Source: Bradyrhizobium ottawaense (GTDB lineage Bacteria > Pseudomonadota > Alphaproteobacteria > Rhizobiales > Xanthobacteraceae). Taken from it: a stretch of DNA of 64,000 nt. A program made the position numbers and the translations under genes. The stretch covers positions 7,265,001-7,329,000 of the forward strand of contig NZ_LT629693.1 of assembly GCF_900099825.1 (NCBI RefSeq), written 5' to 3'. Under the pieces are notes generated by a model, which saw nothing but the letters and a program-made list of their open reading frames with translations, ran no database searches and was not told the origin of the DNA. Below, piece by piece: positions 10,050 to 21,512 of the stretch. Positions within the stretch are counted from its first letter, which is position 1. Each line of letters begins with the position of its first letter.

Positions 10050-11024
10050 ATGCCGATCACCAATGATTTGACGGCACTTCTGGGCATCCGGCATCCGCTG
10101 ATGCTGGCGCCGATGGACACGATTTCCGGCAGCCGGCTGACTCGGGCGGTAGGTGAAGCCGGTGGCTTTGGCATCCTTGGCGGCGGCTATGGGGATCGCG
10201 CCCGGCTCGAAGCGGAGACCGCGAAGCTGAAAGATTTCGCCGGGCCGTTCGGCGTCGGCTTCATCACCTGGAGTCTGGCGAAGAAACCCGAACTTCTCGA
10301 CATCGCGCTCAAGGCCAATCCGCGCGCCATCATGTTATCGTTCGGCGATCCCAAACCGTTTGCGCCGCGCATCAAGTCATCGGGCGCGCTCTTGATCTGC
10401 CAGGTCCAGGACGAGGCAATGGCGCGGCAAGCGCTGGAGGCCGGCGCCGACGTCTTGATTGCGCAGGGAACCGAAGCGGGTGGACACGGCGCCTCGCGGA
10501 CCACCATCGACATCGTGCCCGCGATCGTGGATCTGGCGGCCGGGCGCGTGCCGGTTGTCGCGGCCGGCGGCCTCGCCGACGGGCGCGGGTTGGCTGCGAT
10601 GCTGATGCTGGGGGCGTCCGGCGTGCTGATGGGCACGCGCTTCTATGCCAGCATCGAGGCAGACGGCGCTGACGAAGCGAAGCGGTTGATATGCGCAGCC
10701 AACAGCGGTGAGACTGTACGCGGCGTGGTGTTCGACTGGTCGCGAAAACTGCTGTGGCCGGCACCATTCACCGCGCGCTCGCTGATCAACGCGCATGTGC
10801 GGACCTGGACGGGCCGCGAGATTGAGTTGATGCAGCGGGCGGATCAGGTTGCAGTGGACTATGCTGCGGCGAAAGCCGCTGGCAATTTCGATGTCGCAGC
10901 CGTCTTTGCCGGTGAGTCCGCAGGGCTGATCCACGATATTCCACCGGCGGCTGAAATCGTTGACAGGATCGTCACCGAGGCCGACCAGATCCTGAGCGGA
11001 AAGCGTAATTCGTCGGCGGCGTAA
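10050..11024 (+). CDS. Nitronate monooxygenase family protein (first of two)
   Basis: FMN-dependent NMO-family enzymes oxidise alkyl nitronates and detoxify propionate-3-nitronate. The 324-residue TIM barrel shows the N-terminal LLGIRHPLMLAPMDTISGSR, the EAGGHGA loop with the conserved histidine, and the FMN-phosphate segment AAGGLADGRGLAAMLMLGAS. Some related proteins are enoyl reductases (FabK type) or have unknown substrates, so the activity is a family call. I used MPITND as start; GCGCGAACGC precedes it. It is divergent from a LysR gene and 36 bases before a second NMO gene. Confidence 0.88.
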   Translation: MPITNDLTALLGIRHPLMLAPMDTISGSRLTRAVGEAGGFGILGGGYGDRARLEAETAKLKDFAGPFGVGFITWSLAKKPELLDIALKANPRAIMLSFGDPKPFAPRIKSSGALLICQVQDEAMARQALEAGADVLIAQGTEAGGHGASRTTIDIVPAIVDLAAGRVPVVAAGGLADGRGLAAMLMLGASGVLMGTRFYASIEADGADEAKRLICAANSGETVRGVVFDWSRKLLWPAPFTARSLINAHVRTWTGREIELMQRADQVAVDYAAAKAAGNFDVAAVFAGESAGLIHDIPPAAEIVDRIVTEADQILSGKRNSSAA

Positions 11025-11060
11025 ACCGCATCAACTTCATTCCATCAAGCGAGCAGAACC

Positions 11061-12137
11061 ATGTGGCCAGATCGCCGGATTATCGACCTCTTCAAGACCG
11101 AGTTTCCGATCCTGTTGGCGCCGATGGCCGGTATCATGGACCATGAGTTGGCTATCGCGGTGGCGCAAGGCGGGGGATTGGCTTCGCTTCCGTGTGCAAT
11201 GATCACGGCCGAGAAGGCGCGCGAACAGTTGAGCATTCTGCGCCAGCGTGTCTCGGCGCCGGTCAACCTGAACTTCTTCTGCCACACGCCTGTTGACGCC
11301 GATCCCGCGCGCGAAGCCGGATGGAAGCGGCGGCTCGCGTCTTATTATGCTGAACTGGGCCTCGATCCCGCAGCACCCATCAATGCCGCCAACCGCGCGC
11401 CATTCGACGAGGCGATGTGCGCACTGGTGGAGGAGTTGAAGCCGGAGGTCGTCAGTTTCCATTTCGGTCTGCCTGATGCTGCCATGGTGAAGCGCGTCAA
11501 GGCGGCCGGCGCTCTCGTAGTGGCGTCGGCGACCATCGTGAAGGAAGCGATCTGGCTGGAAGCGCATGGCGCCGACGTCATCATTGCGCAGGGCGCCGAA
11601 GCCGGCGGTCATCGCGGCATGTTCCTGACCGAAAACATCCACGAGCAGCCCGGGACGTTCGCACTGGTGCCGCAGGTGGTCGACGCCGTGAAGGTGCCTG
11701 TCATCGCTGCCGGCGGCATCGCCGACGGGCGCGGCATCGCGGCGGCGTTTGCGCTCGGTGCATCCGGCGTGCAGATCGGCAGCGCCTATCTCCGCTGCCC
11801 GGAATCCAAAGTGAGTGCGCCGGCGCGCGCGCTGTTTGCGCAGTCGGGCGACGATTCCACTGTTATCACCAACGTGATGACCGGGCGGCCCGCGCGCGGC
11901 GTCGCCAACCGCGTCATGCGCGAAGTCGGCCCGATCTCGGCGGATGCGCCGGCGTTTCCGCACGCAGCGACCGCGCTCGGACCGCTCAAGGCCGCCGCGG
12001 AAAAGCTCGGCAAGGTCGATTTCACCAATGTCTGGGCGGGCCAGGCGATCGGGATGGGCACCGACATGCCGGCGGCCGAACTCACGCGTTCGCTGGCGAA
12101 GAGCGCGCTGGCGCGGCTGAGCGCGCTCGGCGGCTAG
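11061..12137 (+). CDS. Nitronate monooxygenase family protein (second of two)
   Basis: A 358-residue NMO-family flavoenzyme with FPILLAPMAGIMDHELAIAV at the N-terminus, NFFCHTP, the EAGGHRG catalytic loop, IAAGGIADGRGIAAAFALGA for FMN phosphate and NVMTGRPARG. These features are typical of class I NMO. It is only distantly similar to the preceding gene, so this is not a recent duplication. The two probably form a unit under the divergent LysR. The last 35 bases, coding the end LARLSALGG, recur twice downstream (near 18212 and 20382) and mark the edge of the accessory mosaic. Confidence 0.92.
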   Translation: MWPDRRIIDLFKTEFPILLAPMAGIMDHELAIAVAQGGGLASLPCAMITAEKAREQLSILRQRVSAPVNLNFFCHTPVDADPAREAGWKRRLASYYAELGLDPAAPINAANRAPFDEAMCALVEELKPEVVSFHFGLPDAAMVKRVKAAGALVVASATIVKEAIWLEAHGADVIIAQGAEAGGHRGMFLTENIHEQPGTFALVPQVVDAVKVPVIAAGGIADGRGIAAAFALGASGVQIGSAYLRCPESKVSAPARALFAQSGDDSTVITNVMTGRPARGVANRVMREVGPISADAPAFPHAATALGPLKAAAEKLGKVDFTNVWAGQAIGMGTDMPAAELTRSLAKSALARLSALGG

Positions 12138-12191
12138 GGCGTGAATTCATAAGCGCATGGCAGGTCCGGGATGGGCCGGGTTGCGGACGTG
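12103..12191 (+). repeat. NMO 3'-end repeat, copy A
   Basis: These 89 bases, the last 35 of the NMO gene plus 54 beyond the stop, recur at 18212-18300 with five differences. The first 33 bases recur at 20382-20414 with a few more changes. This copy is the one inside an intact gene. It marks the left edge of the 12.1-20.4 kb accessory segment. Confidence 0.85.
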
Positions 12192-12267
12192 ACAGCGGAC
12201 GCGTTGGTTCACGCTGGATCGTCGATTGTAGTGACGCGATTGAAATTCGCGAGCAGGAGAAACCCCA

Positions 12268-12735
12268 ATGCGTTCATATCTGATCTTTGCAGCATGGTCT
12301 CTCCTGGCAGGCGCAGGCATCCCATTGATCGGGGTGTTAAATAGCGGTGTTGCTCGCAGCGTCGGTAACCCGTACGCGGCAACGGCAATCATGTTCGCTA
12401 TTGCAGCGTTAGTTGCCCTTGGACTCGCTCTCCCGGTCTACGGTCATCCGACGATTGCGCAATTGGGATCAGCACCTCCAATAAGTTATGGCGCGGGCTT
12501 GCTCATCGGGTTTTATGGATTGTCCGCCACAATCATTATCCCGCGTCTTGGCGCGGCCAGTTTCATCGCATTCATTTTGGTTGCGCAGCTTCTAACCTCT
12601 GCCGCGGTTGACCAGTTCGGTCTGTTCGGCATGGCAAGAAGACCAACCGATATCACCAAGATGGTCGGTTTGATCGTGATCGTGGCTGGCATCACGGTCA
12701 TGGAAATCGGAAATTTGATAAAGGCGCGTCCCTAG
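12268..12735 (+). CDS. DMT-superfamily transporter, YdcZ/DUF606 type
   Basis: A 155-residue protein with five hydrophobic segments, starting MRSYLIFAAWSLLAGAGIPL. It fits the short five-helix DUF606 (YdcZ) branch of the drug/metabolite transporter superfamily, whose members act as dimers with unknown substrates. AGGAG lies 9 bases before the ATG. Its TAG stop (12733-12735) forms part of the CTAG target-site duplication of the following IS701-type element, yet the frame is intact. Composition is less GC-rich than the core genes, in line with an accessory origin. Confidence 0.8.
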   Translation: MRSYLIFAAWSLLAGAGIPLIGVLNSGVARSVGNPYAATAIMFAIAALVALGLALPVYGHPTIAQLGSAPPISYGAGLLIGFYGLSATIIIPRLGAASFIAFILVAQLLTSAAVDQFGLFGMARRPTDITKMVGLIVIVAGITVMEIGNLIKARP

Positions 12736-14189
12736 CACTACTTTGGCAGATTATTGCAATTGATCGGCGAAACTGGATTCCCGAATCAGATTTTCAATGA
12801 TTCATGGGTGGTCGGCTTTTGGAGGGCCGACCATGGTGAACACGACACCGAAGTGGGAAGACGAGCTTGGACGCTGGCTCAAGCCATTCCTGGATCGCTT
12901 GGGTCACAAGGCCCGGCGACGGATGTGTCCGCTTTATATCTCGGGACTGATTGGACCAGGCGATCGCAAGAGCGTCCAGCCGATGGCGGCGCGGCTGGCA
13001 CCGGGCGACTATGACCAGTTGCATCATTTCATCGCTGATGGTGTCTGGGATGCGGCGCCATTGGAGTCGGAATTGCTGGTTCAGGCCGATCGCCTCGTTG
13101 GCGGCAGTGATGCGGTGCTGGTCATTGACGACACCGCGATGCCGAAGAAGGGCGATCGTTCGGTTGGTGTGGCTCCTCAATATGCCTCATCTCTCGGCAA
13201 GACGGCCAATTGCCAAACGTTGGTGTCGCTGACGCTTGCGCGGGGTGAAGTGCCGGTCATGGTGGCGTTACGTCTCTTCGTTCCCGAGAGTTGGACGAGC
13301 AATCCGGTGCGTTTGAAGCGTGCGGGCGTTCCAGTCGAGCACCGCGCAGCGCGGACCAAGCCAGAGATCTCCTTGGCGGAGATTGACCGCGTCATCGCCT
13401 CCGGTGTGCGCTTTGGCTGTGTGCTGGCGGATGCCGGTTACGGCCTCAGCGCGCCGTTCCGTCAGGGGCTCACGACACGCGGCCTGGTTTGGGCCGTCGG
13501 TATCCCTCGTCACCAGAAGGTTTATCCGGTGGAGGTTAAATTGATCTGGCCGGTCGCCGGTCGAGGTCGTCCCCGCAAGCGGCACATTCCCGATGTATTG
13601 TCGACGGCGGCCGAAGACATGCTGGCCAATGCCAAGTGGCAAAATGTGAGTTGGCGAAACGGGACCAAGGGCCGGCTGGAAGCTCGCTTCGCCGCGGTTC
13701 GCGTGCGGACCGCCGATGGACCTCCGCAGCGGATCAAGGACATGGGCCAGCAGCATCTTCCGGGGGACGAAGCCTGGCTTATCGGCGAACACAGGACGTC
13801 GGGAGAGAAGAAATATTATCTCGCCAATCTGCCGGCCAAGACGAAGCTGCGCACGTTAGCTGCCACGATCAAAGCACGATGGATTTGCGAACAGGCCCAC
13901 CAGCAGTTGAAGAGGAGCTCGGGCTTGATCACTTCGAGGGACGATCCTGGCAGGGCCTTCATCGTCATGCGCTCATGACCATGATCGCTTACGCATTCCT
14001 CCAGCATCGCCGTCTCGCACAAGCGGGGCGGAAAAAAAAGAATCAACGGTCCACCGCCTCAGCCGAGCCTGCCGGCCGTACGCCAAGCCATCGTCGATCT
14101 CATCGTTCAACCACGACCTCTGCGATGCCCGTACTGTAGAAGACAAATCGGCGGAAAGCAGCAGCGTGAATAAATCTGCCAAAGTAGTG
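12736..14189 (+). mobile_element. IS701-family insertion sequence (1454 bp) with CTAG target duplication
   Basis: The element has terminal inverted repeats CACTACTTTGGCAGATT (12736-12752) and the perfect mirror AATCTGCCAAAGTAGTG (14173-14189). It is flanked on both sides by CTAG (12732-12735 and 14190-14193). A 4-bp duplication of the YTAR type is characteristic of IS701. It carries one transposase gene, which has a frameshift. The clean ends and duplications indicate a fairly recent insertion. Another insertion sequence begins only about 20 bases beyond its right end. Confidence 0.93.
12833..14139 (+). pseudogene. IS701-family DDE transposase, frameshifted
   Basis: The reading frame opens with MVNTTPKWEDELGRWLKPFL after GGAGGG. 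It shows the DDE residues in VIDDTAMPKKG, LADAGYG and the CEQAHQQLK helix. Around 13911-13915 one base seems lost: AAGAGGAGCTC stands where AAGGAGGAGCTC would keep the frame. The original frame then ends at 13978, while the shifted frame continues with ELGLDHFEGRSWQGLHRHAL and MTMIAYAFLQHRRLAQ to the stop at 14137-14139. The catalytic glutamate lies right at the break, so the protein as written is probably inactive unless frameshifting occurs. Confidence 0.88.
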
Positions 14190-14209
14190 CTAGGCCGTGA
14201 ACCCATCTG

Positions 14210-15562
14210 TGGACGCCCCGCGAGATGCAAGCGGTTTTTGAAGAATATCGCCACGTAGTCGGATGCTGCCATCTGTCCGGCCTCTGATGCAGCGATGGAG
14301 CTGCGGGCCCGTATGGGAGTTCGCGGACCGGAACCAAATCATAAATGCGTGCTCCAGGCACGATGGGTTCATCTGGTTCTTCCGACCCCGTCTCGCCGAC
14401 AGTTGCGCCATACCCTCCTTCGACCGACTACATCTGCGACGACCTCAGGTCTGCCAGGCTCACGCCTTGGCTGCGACCGGAGCTTTGTAGTTTTCCTGCT
14501 TTACGAGTAGCGCCCAGATGATCCGCGCCATCTTGTTGGCGAGCGCGACGGTTACCAGCATGCGCGGCTTGCGAGCCAGCATCTGCTCGAGCCGCGAGCC
14601 CTTTGGTGCGCCGCGCTTGCTCGCCTGACGCACGACGGCGCTGCTGCCGATGATGAGGAGACGCCTGAGCGTGCGTTCGCCCATTTTGGATGTCACGCCG
14701 AGCTTTTGCTTGCCACCTGTGGATTTTTGAAGCGGCGTGAGACCGAGCCAAGCGGCGAAGTCGCGGCCCTTGGCAAAGATCTCGGCTGACGGCGCCAGGG
14801 CAGCGATCGCGGTGGCAGAGATCGGGCCGACGCCTGGAACGGTCATCAGCCTGCGCGATACTTCATCCTCGCGAGCACGGCGCGCGATCTCCTTGTCGAG
14901 GTCCGCTATCTTTCCCTCGAGACCGGCGAGCAGGTCCAACATCAATCGGAACATGGCGCGGGCCGCCTTGGGAAGCGAGCTGGCCATCTCATCTTCCTCG
15001 ATCAGGTCGGCAAGCATCGCCACATGCGACGGCCCCTTGGGTGCGATCCAACCATATTCAGTGAGGTGTCCCCGGATCGCGTTGATGAGCTGGGTTCGCT
15101 GCCGCACCAACAGGTCACGGGTCCGGAACACCAGACCCGCCGCCTGTTGCTGTTCGCTCTTCACGGCCACGAACCGCATGCTCGGCCGCTGCGCTGCTTC
15201 GCATATCGCTTCGGCATCGATCGCGTCGTTTTTTTGCCGCTTCACAAATGGTTTTACATAGGCGGGCGGGATCAGCCGGACTTCATGGCCAAGCTGGGTG
15301 AGCTGACGGGCCCAGTGATGGGCTCCGCCACATGCCTCCAGCGCTACCGTGCAACTCGGCTGGGCTGCGAAGAAATCCAGCAGTTTTCCTCGGCTGATCC
15401 TCTTGCTGAATACTGCTCGACCCCGCTCATCCGCTCCGTGAGCGTGGAAAACATGCTTCGCGATATCGAGACCGACTGTGATAATCTCTGACACGGACGC
15501 CTCCCTTAAGTGGTGCTCAACACCTCCACTTTGGCACATTGATGCCGTCGGCGGGGCGTCCA
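14210..15562 (-). mobile_element. IS110 family element, IS1111-like
   Basis: A DEDD transposase gene is bracketed by a perfect 12-bp inverted repeat: TGGACGCCCCGC at 14210-14221 and GCGGGGCGTCCA at 15551-15562. Short subterminal repeats of this size mark the IS1111 branch of IS110. The true ends probably lie a few bases outside them. About 240 bases on the left inside the element carry no gene. No target duplication is expected for this family. It adjoins the IS701 copy, with about 20 bases between. Confidence 0.75.
14460..15494 (-). CDS. IS110-family DEDD transposase
   Basis: The 344-residue product starts with GTG after TAAGGGAGGCGTCC and reads SEIITVGLDIAKHVFHAHGA. The N-terminal RuvC-like DEDD domain shows the first acidic residue in GLDIAK, the glutamate in ALEACGGAHHW and KNDAIDAEAICEAA with the last aspartates. 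The C-terminal half has MTVPGVGPISATAIAALA and FAAWLGLTPLQKSTGGKQKL, the transposase_20 domain with its serine. The gene looks intact. Such enzymes move DNA by a site-specific mechanism guided, in the family as now understood, by a structured non-coding RNA from the element's end. Confidence 0.93.
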   Translation of the reverse strand: MSEIITVGLDIAKHVFHAHGADERGRAVFSKRISRGKLLDFFAAQPSCTVALEACGGAHHWARQLTQLGHEVRLIPPAYVKPFVKRQKNDAIDAEAICEAAQRPSMRFVAVKSEQQQAAGLVFRTRDLLVRQRTQLINAIRGHLTEYGWIAPKGPSHVAMLADLIEEDEMASSLPKAARAMFRLMLDLLAGLEGKIADLDKEIARRAREDEVSRRLMTVPGVGPISATAIAALAPSAEIFAKGRDFAAWLGLTPLQKSTGGKQKLGVTSKMGERTLRRLLIIGSSAVVRQASKRGAPKGSRLEQMLARKPRMLVTVALANKMARIIWALLVKQENYKAPVAAKA

Positions 15563-15660
15563 CCCCATCATAAATCTGCCGGTCGGTCGGCTTGCTAGAG
15601 TCCGCTATGCCCCGATAGCGACCAAATTCCGCAGCACAGCGAAATGACGCGAAGGGGCCA

Positions 15661-15694
15661 AACTTAGAAGTCGCCCCGACGCGACTTCTAAGTT
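15661..15694. repeat. Perfect 13-bp inverted repeat at the end of the eamA-like gene
   Basis: AACTTAGAAGTCG at 15661-15673 and CGACTTCTAAGTT at 15682-15694 form a perfect stem with an 8-base loop. The right arm touches the stop codon of the minus-strand transporter gene, so it may terminate or stabilise that mRNA, though no T-run follows. The stretch to its left, AGTCCGCTATGCCCCGATAG near 15599, belongs to a dispersed element with cousins near 17330 and 18353. Confidence 0.65.
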
Positions 15695-16554
15695 CAAATT
15701 GGTCGAGCGCTCGGTCTTACCTGTGTAATGGCGACGCCGGAGATCGCGAGCAGCCCACCGACAATCAACTTTGGGGTCATGCGGTCGCCAAGGAACAACA
15801 CGCTCGAAATCAAGGCGAATACCGGAAGCAGGAGACCGAAGGGGGCGACGCGGCCCATGGAGCAACGGGCGATCAGCCAGAACCAAAGGCCAAACCCGAT
15901 GATTCCTCCGATGAAAATTGTGTAGGCGAGTGCCAGCCAACCACGTTCATCCGCCGTGACAAGGCTCGCCAGTTGTCCATATTCAAGGAGCAACGACATC
16001 AACATGACCTGCGGCACCGTGAGCAGCGACGACCACCCCATCAACATCAAAGGATCAAAAGGGCCGTAGCGTTTCGTCAAGACGTTGGATACCGCGAATG
16101 CGAAGGCTGCCCCGACGACAAGCAGCAGCGGAAGCGCGTTTGCCGACAGGCCAGGCTCCGCTGCCAACACCACCACGCCGACGAATGCAAGCACCACTCC
16201 AGCGGACGTGGTGAGAGACGGCCTCTCCGCGAGCAGCGGCCACGCTAACAAGACGGTGAAGGGCGTGGCGAGTTGATATGCGACGGCCGACATGCTTCCC
16301 GAGCCGAGCCCAAGGCCAACATAGAAGAGCCCGAAGTTCAGTCCACCAAGGAAAAGCGAAATAGCTGCGATAGGGCCGAACTGCTGGCGCGTGGGCTTTT
16401 TGACGAACGGAACAAGCAGCAGCGCGATGGCCAGGAAGCGAAGTGCGAGGAAGAAGAGAGGCGGAAACTCCGTAACGCCCACTTTGATGGCCACGAACTG
16501 ATAACCCCAGAGCAAGGGGACGGCCACCGCGCAGACGATCTGGATCGCAGACAT
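15694..16554 (-). CDS. EamA/DMT-family transporter
   Basis: A 286-residue protein with ten hydrophobic segments in two EamA repeats, starting MSAIQIVCAVAVPLLWGYQF. Conserved points include AIKVGVTEFPPLFFLALRF in the first half and LGDRMTPKLIVGGLLAISGV in the second. Family members export amino acids, metabolites or drugs; the substrate is unknown. GAAAGGAAAG precedes the ATG. It lies 71 bases downstream of a tetR gene on the same strand, and a GACCAAACGGTC operator-like site sits 17 bases before its start, so it is likely repressed by that TetR. Confidence 0.88.
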   Translation of the reverse strand: MSAIQIVCAVAVPLLWGYQFVAIKVGVTEFPPLFFLALRFLAIALLLVPFVKKPTRQQFGPIAAISLFLGGLNFGLFYVGLGLGSGSMSAVAYQLATPFTVLLAWPLLAERPSLTTSAGVVLAFVGVVVLAAEPGLSANALPLLLVVGAAFAFAVSNVLTKRYGPFDPLMLMGWSSLLTVPQVMLMSLLLEYGQLASLVTADERGWLALAYTIFIGGIIGFGLWFWLIARCSMGRVAPFGLLLPVFALISSVLFLGDRMTPKLIVGGLLAISGVAITQVRPSARPI

Positions 16555-16571
16555 GGCATCTTTCCTTTCAA

Positions 16572-16583
16572 GACCGTTTGGTC
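16572..16583. promoter_or_regulatory. Putative TetR operator before the eamA-like gene
   Basis: GACCGTTTGGTC on the plus strand (GACCAAACGGTC on the minus) differs in one base from the site upstream of tetR (GACCATTTGGTC read on the minus strand). In both, an ATA-containing AT-rich stretch follows. Its place just before the transporter start suggests a second promoter controlled by the same repressor. Confidence 0.6.
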
Positions 16584-16625
16584 CAGATATAGGCGCGCGA
16601 ACAGCGGAGGCGTCCATGGGTTTGT

Positions 16626-17240
16626 CTACCGAATGAAGCGGTCGAGAAGAGCGTCAACGGTGGCTTGCGACGTGATCCGTGTCGGTGCCGTTTTACCGAC
16701 CACTCGCAGCCCCTCGACGAAGCAGACGAGAATTCGAGCGGCACTTGAAGGCTCGACGCCATCGGCCAACTTGCCCGCCGCCTTCGCACGGGAAAGTGCA
16801 TCAGCCACCCTGGCCTCCATGGCTTTGAAAAAGCTCCCGATGCGACGATCAACTTCAGCATCATGGCCAGCCAGTTCCATGGCTGTGGCCACCAGCAGGC
16901 ATCCGCGCCGACCATTAGCACCGCTCGTTCGGTCAACGTAGCCGGCAAGGTAGGCCCGCAGGCCGTCAACCGGCTCTCTGCGGGGGTCGAGTTCTGTATC
17001 CATCCGTGTCAGGGCATTGGCAACGTAGCGATCAAGCGCACGCAAGAAGAGCGAGTGCTTGTCACCGAAAGCGGCGTAAAGGCTGCCACGCGAGAGCTTC
17101 GTCGCACGAAGAAGGTCCGGTAGCGCCGTGGCGTGATAGCCACGCGACCAGAACACACCCATCGCGCGTTCGACAGCGGCTTCCGTGTCGAAACTTCGGG
17201 GACGGCCACGGGACAACTGCGCCGGGATTTGATGGCTCAT
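16626..17240 (-). CDS. TetR-family transcriptional regulator
   Basis: A 204-residue regulator with the N-terminal TetR helix-turn-helix (GRPRSFDTEAAVERAMGVFW, then LPDLLRATKLSRGSLYAAFG with KHSLFLRALDRY) and a C-terminal ligand domain of the YcdC/TetR_C type, including RRGCLLVATAMELA. Cys in GCLL is common in this subfamily. I used MSHQIPAQLS as start. The divergent-looking dyad GACCAAATGGTC lies 12 bases upstream. It probably represses itself and the downstream EamA transporter in response to an unknown exported compound. Confidence 0.9.
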   Translation of the reverse strand: MSHQIPAQLSRGRPRSFDTEAAVERAMGVFWSRGYHATALPDLLRATKLSRGSLYAAFGDKHSLFLRALDRYVANALTRMDTELDPRREPVDGLRAYLAGYVDRTSGANGRRGCLLVATAMELAGHDAEVDRRIGSFFKAMEARVADALSRAKAAGKLADGVEPSSAARILVCFVEGLRVVGKTAPTRITSQATVDALLDRFIR

Positions 17241-17252
17241 TCCTGGTATATA

Positions 17253-17264
17253 GACCAAATGGTC
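17253..17264. promoter_or_regulatory. Putative TetR autoregulatory operator
   Basis: GACCAAATGGTC has 5-base inverted arms (GACCA/TGGTC) around AA, next to TATATA, 12 bases upstream of the tetR ATG. A near copy precedes the eamA-like gene. Repressor binding here would block the tetR promoter. Confidence 0.65.
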
Positions 17265-17450
17265 GCGAATTCCAAGTGGCCGCCTCGGGTCATTCGCGAC
17301 TGGGTCGAACCAGTTGCAAGTCCGGCCATGTCCGCTATGCCGCCGAAAGCAGAAGTGGATTCAGAGCATTAGCGGCCCCTCAAAGCGCCAATGCAGCTTG
17401 AGGGTATTGCCGCGGACGTGATTCAAGCTCCGAAACTGGAGCCTCGAATC

Positions 17451-17556
17451 ATGCGCTACGAACTCAGCGACTATGAATGGACCGCCATCAAGCCGATGCT
17501 GCCCAACAAGCCGCGCAGCGCGCCACGGGTGAATGACCGTCGCGTCCTCGAGCCGA
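17451..17556 (+). pseudogene. IS5-family transposase, N-terminal fragment
   Basis: ATG at 17451 opens MRYELSDYEWTAIKPMLPNK and continues PRSAPRVNDRRVL, the standard start of a rhizobial IS5-group transposase. The similarity stops after about 35 residues, where the frame runs into unrelated sequence and ends at 17600. The 50 bases before it (ATTCAAGCTCCGAAACTGGA) look like the left end of such an element. The rest is gone, so this is a truncated remnant. Confidence 0.75.
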
Positions 17557-17631
17557 CGTGCTTGCCTTCAGGATGCCGCCGACCTCCGCACATTCCTTGA
17601 TTTTGCACGATTGCTGTGGTATTCGCCGCCT

Positions 17632-17709
17632 ATGAAGAAATCAGTGCGCATCGTCAACCGCAAACACATGACCCGCTTCGGCTGGGCCGTGGAAGGAGTC
17701 GCGCGCTAG
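17632..17709 (+). CDS. Possible 25-residue basic peptide before a terminator
   Basis: ATG at 17632 opens a short frame, MKKSVRIVNRKHMTRFGWAV then EGVAR, ending TAG. About a third of the residues are basic. A strong intrinsic terminator begins 26 bases after the stop, which supports a real transcript ending here. There is no clear ribosome site (CGCCT precedes the ATG) and I recognise no family. It may be a leftover of a mobile element or a real small protein. Confidence 0.35.
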   Translation: MKKSVRIVNRKHMTRFGWAVEGVAR

Positions 17710-17734
17710 AAATTCGACGACGACATCTTTTCGC

Positions 17735-17770
17735 AAGGCCCCGCCGGCATCGGACGGGGCCTTTTTGTTT
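17735..17770 (+). terminator. Intrinsic terminator
   Basis: AAGGCCCCGCC (17735-17745) pairs with GACGGGGCCTT (17752-17762), mostly G-C pairs with one mismatch near the loop, followed by TTTTTGTTT. It would stop plus-strand transcription after the small peptide frame. The DUF1127 gene begins about 40 bases beyond. Confidence 0.85.
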
Positions 17771-17808
17771 GGCCACGCTCCCTGCCGGCACGACAGCAGG
17801 AGCATCCG

Positions 17809-18132
17809 ATGCCACCCCAACAGACGGACCCCGGATTCGAGGTCGAGGGCGATGCCGCAGTGCGCGGCCTCGACCTCACCATCGGTTTGATGAAAGAGGC
17901 CGCGGACGACACGCGCAACGTCTTGAGCTTGCTCAAGCGGTATTGGCGTGCGTTTGGGGAGTGGCGGCAACGCCAGCGCTCACGAACCACCTTGCACGAG
18001 CTGAGTGACAGGGAGCTGATGGACATCGGCGTGACGCGCGATGCGATCGACTACATCGCCCGTCACCGAGCTGTCGATAACCTTAGAGATGGCACAGCGT
18101 ATTTTTGGATCCAGTCCCGCGGAGTAATGTAA
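17809..18132 (+). CDS. DUF1127 domain protein
   Basis: A 107-residue protein whose C-terminal half, WRAFGEWRQRQRSRTTLHEL then SDRELMDIGVTRDAIDYIAR, is the DUF1127 (YjiS-like) motif. This arginine-rich helical domain is abundant in alphaproteobacteria; short members have been tied to phosphate/carbon storage and RNA binding in Agrobacterium. The first 50 residues are acidic and unlike the usual short forms. It stands alone between the terminator and the second copy of the NMO 3'-end repeat. Role here unknown. Confidence 0.8.
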   Translation: MPPQQTDPGFEVEGDAAVRGLDLTIGLMKEAADDTRNVLSLLKRYWRAFGEWRQRQRSRTTLHELSDRELMDIGVTRDAIDYIARHRAVDNLRDGTAYFWIQSRGVM

Positions 18133-18554
18133 CGGATGGCGAGTCACCGCCAATCTTGCACGGCAATCCGACCACACGCCCTGGAGCATTTCAGCGGCGG
18201 GATCGTATCCCGCGCGCTGGCGCAGCTCAGCGCGCTCGGCGGCTAGGGCGTGAATTCATAAGCGCATAGCAGGTCCGAGATGGGCCGGATTGCGGACGTG
18301 CCTGGCTGTCGGGCCGAGGTCTCAGTTTGACTCAAAACAGACAAGCCTCAAATGTCCGCTATTCGGGGGCAAAGGGGGTATGCGCCGGACGTCGCGGTGC
18401 CGAATTCCCGACGGCCTGTCGCCGCAAGCAGCCCGTAATTTCCATCGTACGGCCATGCTTTGGTCAAAACTGCAAGGAGTGTTTAGCGGATCGCCGAGCT
18501 GGTGGAAATCCGACCGCCTCCTTTGCGTGACATTGGATGGGAAAGGGCACACCA
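18133..18554. other. Intergenic mosaic with decayed repeats
   Basis: No convincing gene. The stretch holds GAGCATTTCAGCGGCGGGAT at 18184, which resembles the 3' end of the metallo-hydrolase gene (near 20414). Then comes copy B of the NMO 3'-end repeat at 18212-18300, followed by a degenerate ATGTCCGCTATTCGGGGGCA element near 18351. The last 60 bases lead into the next gene. Confidence 0.6.
18212..18300 (+). repeat. NMO 3'-end repeat, copy B
   Basis: 89 bases matching 12103-12191 at 84 positions, including 35 bases corresponding to the NMO codons LARLSALGG and the TAG stop, and the following GGCGTGAATTCATAAGCGCA. No NMO gene precedes it, so it is a detached fragment. It divides the accessory mosaic in two. 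Confidence 0.85.
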
Positions 18555-19337
18555 ATGAGTTCCACGCCGAACCCGAAAGCAATTGAACCCGACGGTGTCT
18601 TGATCGCGCGCGCGGATGAGCGGCTCGCGCACGCTTATGGACAGATCGCGCGCGCGGATGAACAGCTCGCGCGTGTAACTGAACAGCTCTCGAAGCTGGA
18701 GCATGACGCCGCGCGCCATCCTTCAGCTGTCCTGGGCGGCAAGCATTCGCGCGGCTGGCCGGCGCTGCGTGGCCTCATCGGCTCGCTGTTGGCCGCGAGC
18801 ATATTTATCGCGGCTTTCGTTTCGCAGTCCTCTTACGGCGATGCGGCCAAGCTGACTGTCGCCCGGTGGGTGCCGCAGCTCAATCCGGCTTCATTGCTGC
18901 CGCTGGAAAAAGGGCTTCCCGCGCAGCCGAGCCCATCTACCGTTCTGGCGGCCGCGGCGGAGCCAGTACTTCCGGCTCAGACCGCACGGCAAGACGTCGT
19001 GCCGACAGCCGGCCCGGTGTCTCCTGAACTGGCGCAGTTGCTCGAGACGATGGCACGCGATCTGACAAACGTGAAGCAAGGGATCGAGCAACTCAAGACG
19101 AGCCAGGAACAAATGGCCATCGACAATACAAAAGCTGTTGAGCAGCTCAAAGCGGGCCAGGAACAAATGACACGCCTTATGGCCAAGGCTTCCGAGCAGA
19201 ACCTGTCGCCCAAGACATCGGCAGCTCTGCCTCGGCCCACTGCCACCCCGGCGCGCAAGCCAATGCCGACACTCCCGTCGCCGCAAGCCAGAGCGCGGGC
19301 GCAGGCCCCAAAGCAGTTGCAGCCCGAAGAACAGTAG
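18555..19337 (+). CDS. Hypothetical membrane-anchored coiled-coil protein
   Basis: A 260-residue protein of a type I associate with Bradyrhizobium genomes, without known function. Residues about 15-55 form a heptad-like repeat (IARADERLAHAYGQ, IARADEQLARVTEQ, LSKLEHDA). One membrane segment follows near residues 75-95 (LRGLIGSLLAASIFIAAFVS). A long coiled-coil stretch comes later (LLETMARDLTNVKQGIEQLK, with TSQEQMAIDNT and AGQEQMTRLMA repeats), then a Pro/Ala-rich tail ending RAQAPKQLQPEEQ. I used the ATG at 18555. Topology would place the C-terminal part in the periplasm. Confidence 0.7.
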   Translation: MSSTPNPKAIEPDGVLIARADERLAHAYGQIARADEQLARVTEQLSKLEHDAARHPSAVLGGKHSRGWPALRGLIGSLLAASIFIAAFVSQSSYGDAAKLTVARWVPQLNPASLLPLEKGLPAQPSPSTVLAAAAEPVLPAQTARQDVVPTAGPVSPELAQLLETMARDLTNVKQGIEQLKTSQEQMAIDNTKAVEQLKAGQEQMTRLMAKASEQNLSPKTSAALPRPTATPARKPMPTLPSPQARARAQAPKQLQPEEQ

Positions 19338-19468
19338 TTGTCATCGGCGGCGGTGCCCGCTCGCTTGGCATCGTTCACAGAACTGGGAAAATTCGTTCGC
19401 GTCCATGCAGCACACGGTCATTTAATCCTCATGACTCCAGGCGCGCCGCAAAGGGAATTGTGCCCGTA

Positions 19469-19738
19469 TCAGAGAAATTCCCGAAGCCGCGCGAGTTCGA
19501 CAGCGACCTCTCCAGACAAGACGGCACTTACCAACGGCGGCTGTGGTGAAGTGTGAATCTCATACAAATGCCGCATGGAGGCAGGCTTGGCCATGAACTC
19601 CCGTATGCACCCATCGAGCGTGCCATCCACGAGCAGATAGGGGCCAGTGCCGTTAGCGTAACGTTGGTTGTTGCGCGAAGGCCACTTGCGAAGAATCGCC
19701 GGTGCATCGAAATTGACGTGAGCCTTGGTTGCGCCCAT
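19469..19738 (-). CDS. Small conserved hypothetical protein
   Basis: An 89-residue frame on the minus strand. Its middle, GPYLLVDGTLDGCIREFMAK then PASMRHLYEIHTSPQPPLV, matches a short uncharacterised protein I recall from Bradyrhizobium genomes. The C-terminus AVLSGEVAVELARLREFL looks helical. The function is unknown. Overlapping frames on both strands (19553-19840 plus, 19528-19833 minus) lack such a pattern and were dropped. The start may be a little internal. Confidence 0.65.
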   Translation of the reverse strand: MGATKAHVNFDAPAILRKWPSRNNQRYANGTGPYLLVDGTLDGCIREFMAKPASMRHLYEIHTSPQPPLVSAVLSGEVAVELARLREFL

Positions 19739-19901
19739 CCGTGCGCCTCCAGCGAGGGCGGACCCTTGGTGGTGTCCAAAACTGACGCGATTGACCTGAT
19801 GCGGAAATCCGACCCATCGCGACAGTTCGGCATGCTTTGATGCGGTAGTCTGAATTTCCGGCCTTTTTTTGACTGGAGAATGACGGCTGTCGGGCGTCGG
19901 T

Positions 19902-20186
19902 ATGAGCCTGATGGAGCGCCTCGGGGTCGACGGCGTATTCTACCTTATGGGCACCACGGCGTTCCTCTTGGCTCTCCTCGCTGGCGGAAGGAGCTTGATC
20001 TCAGCGCCCCCAATGCACCTTGAACGGCCTTTCGAGATGCTCGCTGCGCAAGCGGCACTCCTCGCGCACGACCAGTTCCACTCTTCCGACGAGCTTTCAC
20101 CGCCGGACCCGAGTACGCATTTCCCCTTGACGGCCAGTGTCGAAGCTCCGGATGAGTCGATCCGGCGTGGCGCGCCCCGCGCTTAG
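19902..20186 (+). CDS. Hypothetical protein with one membrane segment
   Basis: A 94-residue frame starting MSLMERLGVDGVFYLMGTTA, with one hydrophobic segment (residues 12-28) and a polar tail rich in serine, proline and acidic residues. No family is recognised and no good ribosome site is seen. It sits in a decayed stretch of the mosaic. Coding status is doubtful. Confidence 0.35.
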   Translation: MSLMERLGVDGVFYLMGTTAFLLALLAGGRSLISAPPMHLERPFEMLAAQAALLAHDQFHSSDELSPPDPSTHFPLTASVEAPDESIRRGAPRA

Positions 20187-20381
20187 GGTTAGCGCGCCGA
20201 CAGAAATGGTATTGCGTTTATTGGGTCTCAAGCAACGGGCTGATAAGTTCCGCCGAAGGCAAGCGCTGATGCGATGCAACGACTTCCGAGTTTGGCACGA
20301 AACGGATCAACCGAGTCGGTCGGCTGATGTCCGTTGATCGGGGTGGACCGGAACTGGCAGTTCCGGGCCGTCGGAACCGTT

Positions 20382-20414
20382 GCGTTGGCGCAGCTAAGTG
20401 GGCTCGGCGGCTAG
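20382..20414 (+). repeat. NMO 3'-end repeat, copy C
   Basis: GCGTTGGCGCAGCTAAGTGG followed by GCTCGGCGGCTAG matches the last 33 bases of the NMO repeat with four differences from copy B. It ends 1-2 bases before the stop codon of the convergent metallo-hydrolase gene. This suggests that NMO and the hydrolase were once direct convergent neighbours. It is the right edge of the accessory mosaic. Confidence 0.65.
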
Positions 20415-20415
20415 A

Positions 20416-21315
20416 TCATTTCACCGGCGGGACCGCGTCGATGTTGTGAATCCACTGCTCGGGGTAGAGCGCATAGGCGTCGCCGCGCCGGGCGAGCCGC
20501 GCGAAAGCCGGGAAATGCAGGTGCATCCCGGCGATCAACACACCATCGGCGGAAACGCGATCGAACATGCGCTTGCGCGAGGCCGCCGCTGCCGCCAGAT
20601 CGGTATCGAAGGCCATGCCGGCCTCGGGATACGCGGTTTGCACTTCCGGCACATGCACGGTGTCGCCCCAGATCATCAGCTGATCGTCGCCCGACGCGAT
20701 CAGATAGGCCGTGTGGCCCGGCGTGTGCCCGTGGCTCGGCACCGCGGTGACGCCGGGGAAGACTTCGCCCTGCTTGAACAGCCGCGTTTGCTTCTTGTAG
20801 GGCTCGACCTGTTCGCGGCCGGCCTGGAAGAAGAGCTTCTTGTCGCGCTCGTTTGCCTTTGCCATCGCGCCGTCGTCGAACCAATGCGGCAATTCGTTCT
20901 GGTGCATCACGAGTTCGGCGTTCGGAAACAGCAGTTTGCCGCTCGTCATGTCGGTCAGTCCGGCGGAATGATCCGGATGCATATGCGTCAGCAGCACCGT
21001 GTCGATCGACTTCGGATCGATCCCGGCGCCGGCGAGGTTCTGCTGCACCAGACCGGCGCTGGGCTGCATATAGTTCCCCGAGCCGGTATCGACGATCGCG
21101 GTGCGGCCTTTCGAATGGATCACGAAGGTGTTGACGCTGGTTCGCCGCGCCGGCCGGAAGGCGTCGTTGAGGATCTGCCGCGCTCTGTCGAGATCGACGT
21201 TGCGCATCACCTCTAACGTGCTGTCGAGATAGCCGTCGCTGATCGCGGTGACGACGATGTCGCCGATCTTGCGATGATAGACGCCGGGAATTTGCTGGAC
21301 CGGTTGGGCGTTCAT
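20416..21315 (-). CDS. Metallo-beta-lactamase-fold hydrolase
   Basis: A 299-residue MBL-fold protein with the metal-binding signature THMHPDHS (HxHxDH), an upstream IVDTGSGNYM strand, a HGHTPGHTAYLI segment with the third histidine, WGDTVH with the bridging aspartate, and GMHLHFPAF with the last histidine. The set suits a dinuclear zinc hydrolase such as a lactonase or quorum-quenching-like enzyme, but the substrate is not determinable. The start at MNAQPVQQIPG is preceded by GGTCCCCC. It ends against copy C of the NMO repeat. Confidence 0.9.
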   Translation of the reverse strand: MNAQPVQQIPGVYHRKIGDIVVTAISDGYLDSTLEVMRNVDLDRARQILNDAFRPARRTSVNTFVIHSKGRTAIVDTGSGNYMQPSAGLVQQNLAGAGIDPKSIDTVLLTHMHPDHSAGLTDMTSGKLLFPNAELVMHQNELPHWFDDGAMAKANERDKKLFFQAGREQVEPYKKQTRLFKQGEVFPGVTAVPSHGHTPGHTAYLIASGDDQLMIWGDTVHVPEVQTAYPEAGMAFDTDLAAAAASRKRMFDRVSADGVLIAGMHLHFPAFARLARRGDAYALYPEQWIHNIDAVPPVK

Positions 21316-21389: not shown

Positions 21390-21512
21390 CCTCTCCCGCT
21401 TGCGGGGGAGGCCGACGCGCCCGAAGGGCGGGGCGGGTGGGGGCTCTCTCCACGCGGGGAATCCCGATGTGGAAGCACCCCCACCCCAACCCTCCCCCGC
21501 AAGCGGGAGAGG
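21390..21512. repeat. Palindromic intergenic repeat, CTCTCCCGCTTGCGGG type
   Basis: Two 22-base arms (21390-21411 and 21491-21512) are perfect inverted copies around the core CCCGCTTGCGGG. Inside are GGCGGGTGGGGGCTCTCTCC and its partial mirror CACCCCCACCCC. This is a familiar dispersed element of Bradyrhizobium-type genomes. It lies upstream of the MBL hydrolase. Confidence 0.85.

Follow-up and report, generated by a model that had tools for sequence, protein, structure and literature searches.

Stacked inserts and displaced gene ends between a nitronate monooxygenase gene and its convergent neighbour in Bradyrhizobium ottawaense

How does the 3' end of one gene come to stand three times in a row along a bacterial chromosome? 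The question is raised by a 64,000-nucleotide stretch of Bradyrhizobium ottawaense DNA (contig NZ_LT629693.1, positions 7,265,001 to 7,329,000), called here the window. The gene is NMO2, a nitronate monooxygenase gene (11061..12137; PF03060, E 3.6e-76) whose 3' end is the duplicated sequence; its convergent neighbour is MBL, a metallo-beta-lactamase-fold gene (20416..21315, minus strand; PF00753, E 1.6e-22). Coordinates are those of the window, and features lie on the plus strand unless the minus strand is named. The answer favoured below, to which we give about an even chance, is that inserts were stacked serially at the NMO2-MBL junction through one-sided recombination (homology plus end-joining) between alleles of the locus that were already occupied.

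The repeat has three copies: A (12103..12191), the last 35 bases of NMO2 and the 54 bases that follow; B (18212..18300), the NMO2 3' end again with its 54 bases; and C (20382..20414), a displaced 33-base NMO2 3' end set against the MBL stop codon, with orthologues in two other genomes of the genus, G138 and G241. A and B are identical at 84 of 89 positions (33/35 within the NMO2 part, 51/54 past the stop); of the 33 positions of C, 29 agree with B and 28 with A. To set a background level, 80 related loci retrieved with the NMO2 protein (75 titled Bradyrhizobium; some loci are much shorter, and G220 was unscored) were scanned for the last 36 bases of NMO2 over as much as 10 kb downstream of the gene. 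B scores 33/36 and C 28/36 in the host, that is, the genome of the window, against a best downstream match of 24/36 and a best upstream control of 25/36. These figures uphold the three NMO2-end copies described in an earlier note on this DNA. The scan has its limits: in G241, B scores 24/36 and C lies outside the scanned 10 kb, so that they were missed by it and recovered by blastn. The sequence of C alone is insufficient, its match in a whole-genome search being marginal (E 0.005, ranked below an unrelated match at E 0.001); C is established by its position and by the orthologous copies in G138 and G241. A chance origin of the repeats is rejected: for A and B by score, for C by position and orthologues. 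Assembly error is unlikely, as the host genome is one contig of 8.34 Mb and G241 has B together with about 630 bases to its left in common.

What was the site before it was filled? The 3' part of NMO2 finds a match in 253 of 265 genomes of the genus, the host included, and these were also searched for MBL. A relative at about 80% identity or more is present in 35 (in one, G137, as a partial match), and in 19 of the 35 it has NMO2 as its convergent neighbour. Ten of the 19 have a bare junction, with 12-30 bases between the matches (G140, G065, G090, G062, G005, G159, G004, G191, G237, and G210); the bare junction is found also in B. algeriense, B. jicamae, and Bradyrhizobium sp. SZCCT0283 (loci L019, L020, and L024). 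Genomes with NMO2 and MBL adjacent do exist, then, and the two genes were formerly convergent neighbours, as the earlier note had supposed. Five more genomes hold a similar stretch of about 0.8-0.9 kb (G247, G094, G144, G234, and G190, the last with NMO2 itself broken), which carries a peptidoglycan-binding-domain gene in both of the genomes scanned, G247 and G094. G220 holds about 1.06 kb with an ABC-type substrate-binding gene, unrelated to the stretch in the other five. From these two contents, the NMO2-MBL boundary has accepted genes more than once. The remaining three junctions, in the host, G138, and G241, contain mosaic inserts. As for the other 16 of the 35, NMO2 was not found in G164, lies on another contig or far away in 11, and has no listed position in G040, G203, G204, and G137; in the first three of these four, no NMO2 lies within about 1.5 kb of MBL.

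The three mosaic inserts were compared by blastn. On both sides of the locus the window aligns with G138 and G241 over long stretches, at about 87-93% identity, so the insert is a local event. From the NMO2 stop to MBL the distance is about 8.3 kb in the host, 2.7 kb in G138, and 12.5 kb in G241, and the cargo differs among the three. Common DNA lies mainly near the junctions: the start of the DNA after NMO2; about 630 bases left of B, in host and G241; and, in all three, about 90-112 bases left of C. Host and G138 also share a 159-base DUF1127 stretch, inverted in G138. The repeat sets differ likewise: A, B, and C in the host; A and C in G138; and A, B, and C plus a partial fourth in G241, which is a second C joint, ended inside the NMO2 end. 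Segments A-B and B-C have nothing in common beyond the 89-base repeat. Simple tandem duplication of one insert is therefore rejected as the sole explanation, and duplication followed by replacement, one of two routes offered in the earlier note, is possible with nothing positive in its favour.

The most telling joint is that of copy B. A 26-base copy of the MBL 3' end (18184..18209) lies to its left, two bases away; the earlier note had remarked that GAGCATTTCAGCGGCGGGAT in this place resembles the MBL gene end, and this proved its best clue. The 26-mer GATCATTTCACCGGCGGGATCGCATC, sought with at most three mismatches in the whole genomes of host, G138, and G241, has four matches (the reversed-pattern control has none): in the host at the MBL end and at B, in G138 at the MBL end, and in G241 at B. 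G241's own MBL end departs from the pattern at 4 of 26 positions by eye, and hence falls outside the limit. At B, the 26 bases of G241 are identical to the MBL end of G138, whereas those of the host differ from the G138 end at three positions and from the host's own MBL end at five. Because the 26-mer, within these limits, is confined to MBL ends and B, copy B is a fusion of two gene ends, that of MBL and that of NMO2. The order there (MBL end; two bases, CC in the host and CA in G241; NMO2 end; the repeat that follows it) is the reverse of the chromosomal order. Judged by eye, the joint appears to have at most one or two bases in common. It follows that an occupied form of this same locus was the source of segment A-B, or a stage on its way. 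We see only two ways for B to arise: either a locus copy reaching into MBL was joined to one with its start in NMO2, or the boundary was duplicated in tandem.

The second of these routes begins with the doubling, in tandem, of a bare boundary made up of NMO2 end and MBL end (about 63 bases); unrelated DNA would then have entered each copy independently. That would account for the MBL end standing before the NMO2 end at B, and for A-B and B-C having no cargo in common. Yet none of the ten bare junctions, with their 12-30 bases, has room for such a unit; the sequence preceding copy C is not an MBL end; and separate insertions starting with the same sequence would be required. We consider this history improbable.

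What, then, is the sequence that starts the inserts? Past the stop in A and B, the 54 bases begin with CTAGGGCGTGAATTCATAA and form the start of a low-copy dispersed repeat, called R1. At copy A, R1 (12134..12191) is a truncated IS4/5-type terminus that begins with the CTAG in which the NMO2 stop codon lies; at copy B it has a longer form (18243..18343), orthologous to the DNA after NMO2 in G138, where the match, NMO2 end included, runs for 132 bases at 86%, about 97 of them past the stop. Degenerate CTAGGGCGTGAATTCATAA termini, with at most one mismatch, occur at 7, 6, and 5 sites in the three genomes, and at none with the reversed pattern. At one further locus (L207) the same terminus lies at the end of a broken transposase, assigned to the IS4/5 family by matches to PF13340 and, just above its cut-off, PF13586. 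R1 also follows a PaaX-type gene in G138, and in the host too, but there separated from it by an insertion sequence. On further copies of the repeat, the case that would have refuted the earlier note, a common dispersed element, does not hold for the 89 bases as a whole; as a correction, the right-hand 54 bases are dispersed and not unique.

R1 invites the thought that insertion sequences made the locus: an IS4/5-type element would have struck the CTAG at the NMO2 stop codon, the adjacent gene ends being copied in later rearrangements driven by insertion sequences. R1 does begin at CTAG in both A and B, and another insertion sequence of the insert (12731-14194) likewise sits in CTAG. Against this, the target duplication for this type of element is about 4 bases, and the repeat here is 33; copy C has no adjoining IS end; and the last 36 bases of the PaaX-type gene of G138, although it too is trailed by R1, are unrepeated in its 3.1-kb locus (at best 19/36 downstream and 20/36 upstream). 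An origin of this kind is a long shot.

The other end of the older insert is R2 (20292..20381), a dispersed repeat left of copy C, common to G138 and G241; it is R2 that precedes C. Its part 20292-20358 is apparently non-coding and is found in 40 of 265 genomes, with at most three candidates scored per genome. Both ends of the older insert are thus dispersed sequence, and only the NMO2 and MBL ends are specific. A third component, X (17560..18183), is a displaced chromosomal piece with a DUF1127 open reading frame (ORF; 17809-18132, PF06568). From 17560 to about 18110 X matches loci elsewhere in the genus, and from 17583 onwards it is common to G241 at 82%. Matches occur in 176 of 265 genomes, in other surroundings; surrounding ORFs are listed for 3 of the 12 loci retrieved, and in one of them (L226) X is flanked by a MurJ gene on one side and a molybdopterin-binding dehydrogenase gene on the other. 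In both host and G241, the copy at the NMO2-MBL locus is the sole match to X among the matches listed.

These pieces can be placed in order. G138 lacks A-B, and the sequence past its NMO2 is orthologous to that past B; most simply, then, B-C is the older insert and A-B the addition. Alternatively, G138 could have lost A-B through recombination between the repeats. Comparison shows a first step in which an ancestor of host, G138, and G241 gained an insert bounded by R1 and R2 between NMO2 and MBL, leaving 33 bases of the NMO2 end against MBL as copy C. A second step is shown by host and G241, which carry the added segment A-B with its right end of 26 bases of MBL end and 35-37 bases of NMO2 end. 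The earlier note's one or two added segments are accordingly at least two. In the second step, the incoming DNA would have been another occupied allele (NMO2, R1, cargo, X, MBL end), placed ahead of the resident one; homologous recombination would have made the join on the NMO side and end-joining the join on the far side, in the manner of homology-facilitated illegitimate recombination, with the 3' end of the old gene persisting as a scar. The first step may have taken the same route or used an attachment site. Later, presumably, cargo was replaced and insertion sequences were added.

One-sided recombination is ranked first because it accounts for the B joint in a single step, does without a lost enzyme, and fits the patchwork cargo. 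The inserted DNA is a patchwork of this kind, with its chromosomal DUF1127 piece and its IS4/5-type terminus. Copies B and C, moreover, are displaced NMO2 3' ends downstream of a newer insert, as expected of an array built by homology-facilitated illegitimate recombination. The ten bare junctions, the six inserts about the size of a single gene, the presence of the B fusion in both host and G241, and the failure to find an integrase in the inserts also speak for this reading.

Exchange between alleles has also left traces. Between 9.9 and 11.25 kb, a tract covering NMO1 and the start of NMO2, host and G241 agree at 87-96% and stand mostly apart from G138 and most outgroups; their divergent allele class has its NMO1 part nearest to G210 and L011, and G138 keeps the common allele with the outgroups. 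Counted in 150-base steps, informative sites reach 24 for a host-G241 grouping against 8, 3, and 4. Since host and G241 share this divergent tract without G138, allele replacement by homologous recombination does occur at the locus. Within the repeat, A and B agree at 63/89 positions in G241 (24/35 and 39/54) against 84/89 in the host, and the 54 bases past the stop of host A are nearer to host B (51/54) than to A of G241 (38/54). The identity of A and B in the host therefore looks younger than in G241, and A was probably converted later by B in the host strain; an independent second event is a possible alternative.

Several observations weigh against stacking by one-sided recombination. None of the 16 other NMO2-MBL junctions shows the arrangement expected of a donor, X directly beside MBL (ten lack the room, and six have no X by blastn), and the surroundings of ten copies of X elsewhere, out of 176 matching genomes, contain neither NMO2 nor MBL for about 1.5 kb. 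The flank comparison does not place the host nearer to G241 or to G138, so loss of A-B from G138 is possible. The shared tract is patchy, with no signal in the step 10951-11100 (1 against 2, 3, and 0); it fades about 0.9 kb before copy A, an excess returning only at 12001-12137 (8 sites against 2, 2, and 2), and we do not claim it as the homologous arm of the A-B event. Finally, two separate joints lie 33 and 35-37 bases from the NMO2 stop, a closeness that random end-joining would not favour. Conceivably, the joints at 33 and 35-37 bases in NMO2 and 26 bases in MBL are nonrandom, and a recombinase-free or unrecognised mechanism stacks whole alternative alleles head to tail, leaving a short scar of both genes each time; such a mechanism seems very doubtful.

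Near-equal distances suggest a defined edge, and this brings in the other route offered in the earlier note, site-specific integration. Decayed integrative elements would have stacked at one attachment site (accretion of the type known for cis-mobilizable elements, CIMEs), with the NMO2 3' end as the att core; A, B, and C as attL, inner att, and attR; and the integrases lost. Joints 2-4 bases apart are accounted for, and the ten bare junctions supply the empty site. The 33-37-base gene-end repeats, the tandem layout, and the strain-variable cargo fit CIME-IME accretion as described in parts of PMC5704250.

The searches for the enzyme were less favourable. Pfam scans of insert ORFs (9 in the host, 12 in G241, and 1 in G138; some small ORFs were unscanned) found no integrase, and no serine recombinase, which was sought only in these scans. 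None of 41 PF00589 matches in the three genomes lies inside the locus. With phmmer, 14 query frames (12 of them true integrases by eye) matched 3 of 93 loci, none in the window and none between NMO2 and MBL; the three (L011, L026, weakly, and L052) have their integrase-like matches more than 6 kb past the NMO2 end, in loci without the repeat. The earlier statement that no integrase gene remains thus extends to about 23 kb of insert in three genomes, with no relic recognised either, and loss of every integrase would be required. Nor did a search for an intact ancestral element recover one: the 33-base core pattern has no match in viral contigs, and the 80 related loci, at 24/36 or less downstream, contain no such repeat. 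Part of the cargo is ordinary chromosomal DNA. The fusion of MBL and NMO2 ends at B weighs against simple attachment-site integration, which does not predict it; the 26-base MBL end would still require an illegitimate step. Site-specific integration is not established, and we regard accretion of decayed elements as unlikely, if the most serious of the rivals.

Between the joints, the host carries a mixed cargo. Segment A-B contains a YdcZ-type small membrane transporter (12268..12735; PF04657, E 3.4e-27); an insertion sequence (12731..14194) with perfect 22-base inverted ends, CTAG at both ends, and a DDE_5 transposase ORF (12797-13978); an IS110-type transposase (14460..15563, minus strand; PF01548 and PF02371); an EamA transporter (15694..16617, minus strand; PF00892, E 2e-36) with a TetR regulator (16626..17258, minus strand; PF00440 and PF16925); an N-terminal fragment of an IS4/5-type transposase (17451..17557), recognised by eye against the L207 ORF; and the DUF1127 protein of X. 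Segment B-C contains hypothetical ORFs of 266 amino acids (18537..19337; no Pfam match above the cut-off) and 94 amino acids (19902..20186; no Pfam match). The first insertion sequence has a second copy in the host genome. In the window it occupies the CTAG at the stop codon of the YdcZ gene; at L089 (7876-9338) the same element, also in CTAG, lies between the end of the PaaX-type gene and a copy of R1. G241 carries an AraC-type and two LysR-type regulators; a cation efflux protein with a metal-sensitive repressor; glyoxalase-like and thiazoline-hydrolase domain proteins; a tricarboxylate-transport receptor; a hexapeptide succinyltransferase; a DUF1127 protein; and a transposase with an integrase-core (rve) domain, which we take to be of the IS30 type. 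G138 has as its cargo a single TPR-repeat regulator besides the inverted DUF1127 stretch.

Two observations concern the far side of MBL. In G241 (an oriented join of loci L122 and L202) about 15 kb precede the alpha/beta hydrolase gene, against about 0.7 kb in the host; this is a second insert, on MBL's other side. In the window, a perfect 22-base inverted repeat (21390-21411 and 21491-21512, 79 bases apart) lies between MBL and the hydrolase gene.

Displaced gene ends are known from other systems. In Rhs C-terminal displacement, orphaned 3' regions lie downstream of a constant 5' gene part; the orphaned ends are alike, and the present locus differs in that no polymorphic toxin and no alternative C-terminal domains were seen. 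Rhs displacement is mentioned in an account of Vibrio cholerae type VI secretion (T6SS) effector gene arrays (PMC5361080), parts of which tentatively attribute sequential displacement to homology-facilitated illegitimate recombination, called rare by its authors. There, as on our reading here, successive one-sided insertions displace the previous gene's 3' end downstream as a scar. In the arrays that those parts describe, immunity genes stay behind whole and it is the effector that is exchanged; at the present locus NMO2 stays the same enzyme, the remnants are of 33-37 bases, and no benefit is evident. To the CIME and IME accretion described in parts of PMC5704250 the likeness lies in tandem inserts parted by target-gene 3' ends, outer copies that mark a once-bare site, and the absence of integration genes; the difference lies in the lack of an integrase relic in three strains, the inner copy with 26 bases of the opposite gene, and the partly patchwork, chromosomal-looking cargo. 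A literature search found no paper joining nitronate monooxygenase, genomic island, and attachment site, and we claim nothing wider about what is in print; among the Bradyrhizobium hot-spot papers listed, none was relevant by title.

The locus is real, its history is largely explained, and it is ordinary in kind: an evolutionary record, not a new kind of mobile element. Insertion hot spots do not usually preserve a legible history. At this one, much of the order of events can be followed in three related genomes, ten bare sites, and a fused-end scar. The scar shows that an occupied copy of the locus was the source of the new segment, or a stage on its way, so that repeats of a gene end may form with no integrase at work. 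A direct repeat of a gene end, therefore, should not automatically be taken for an attachment site.

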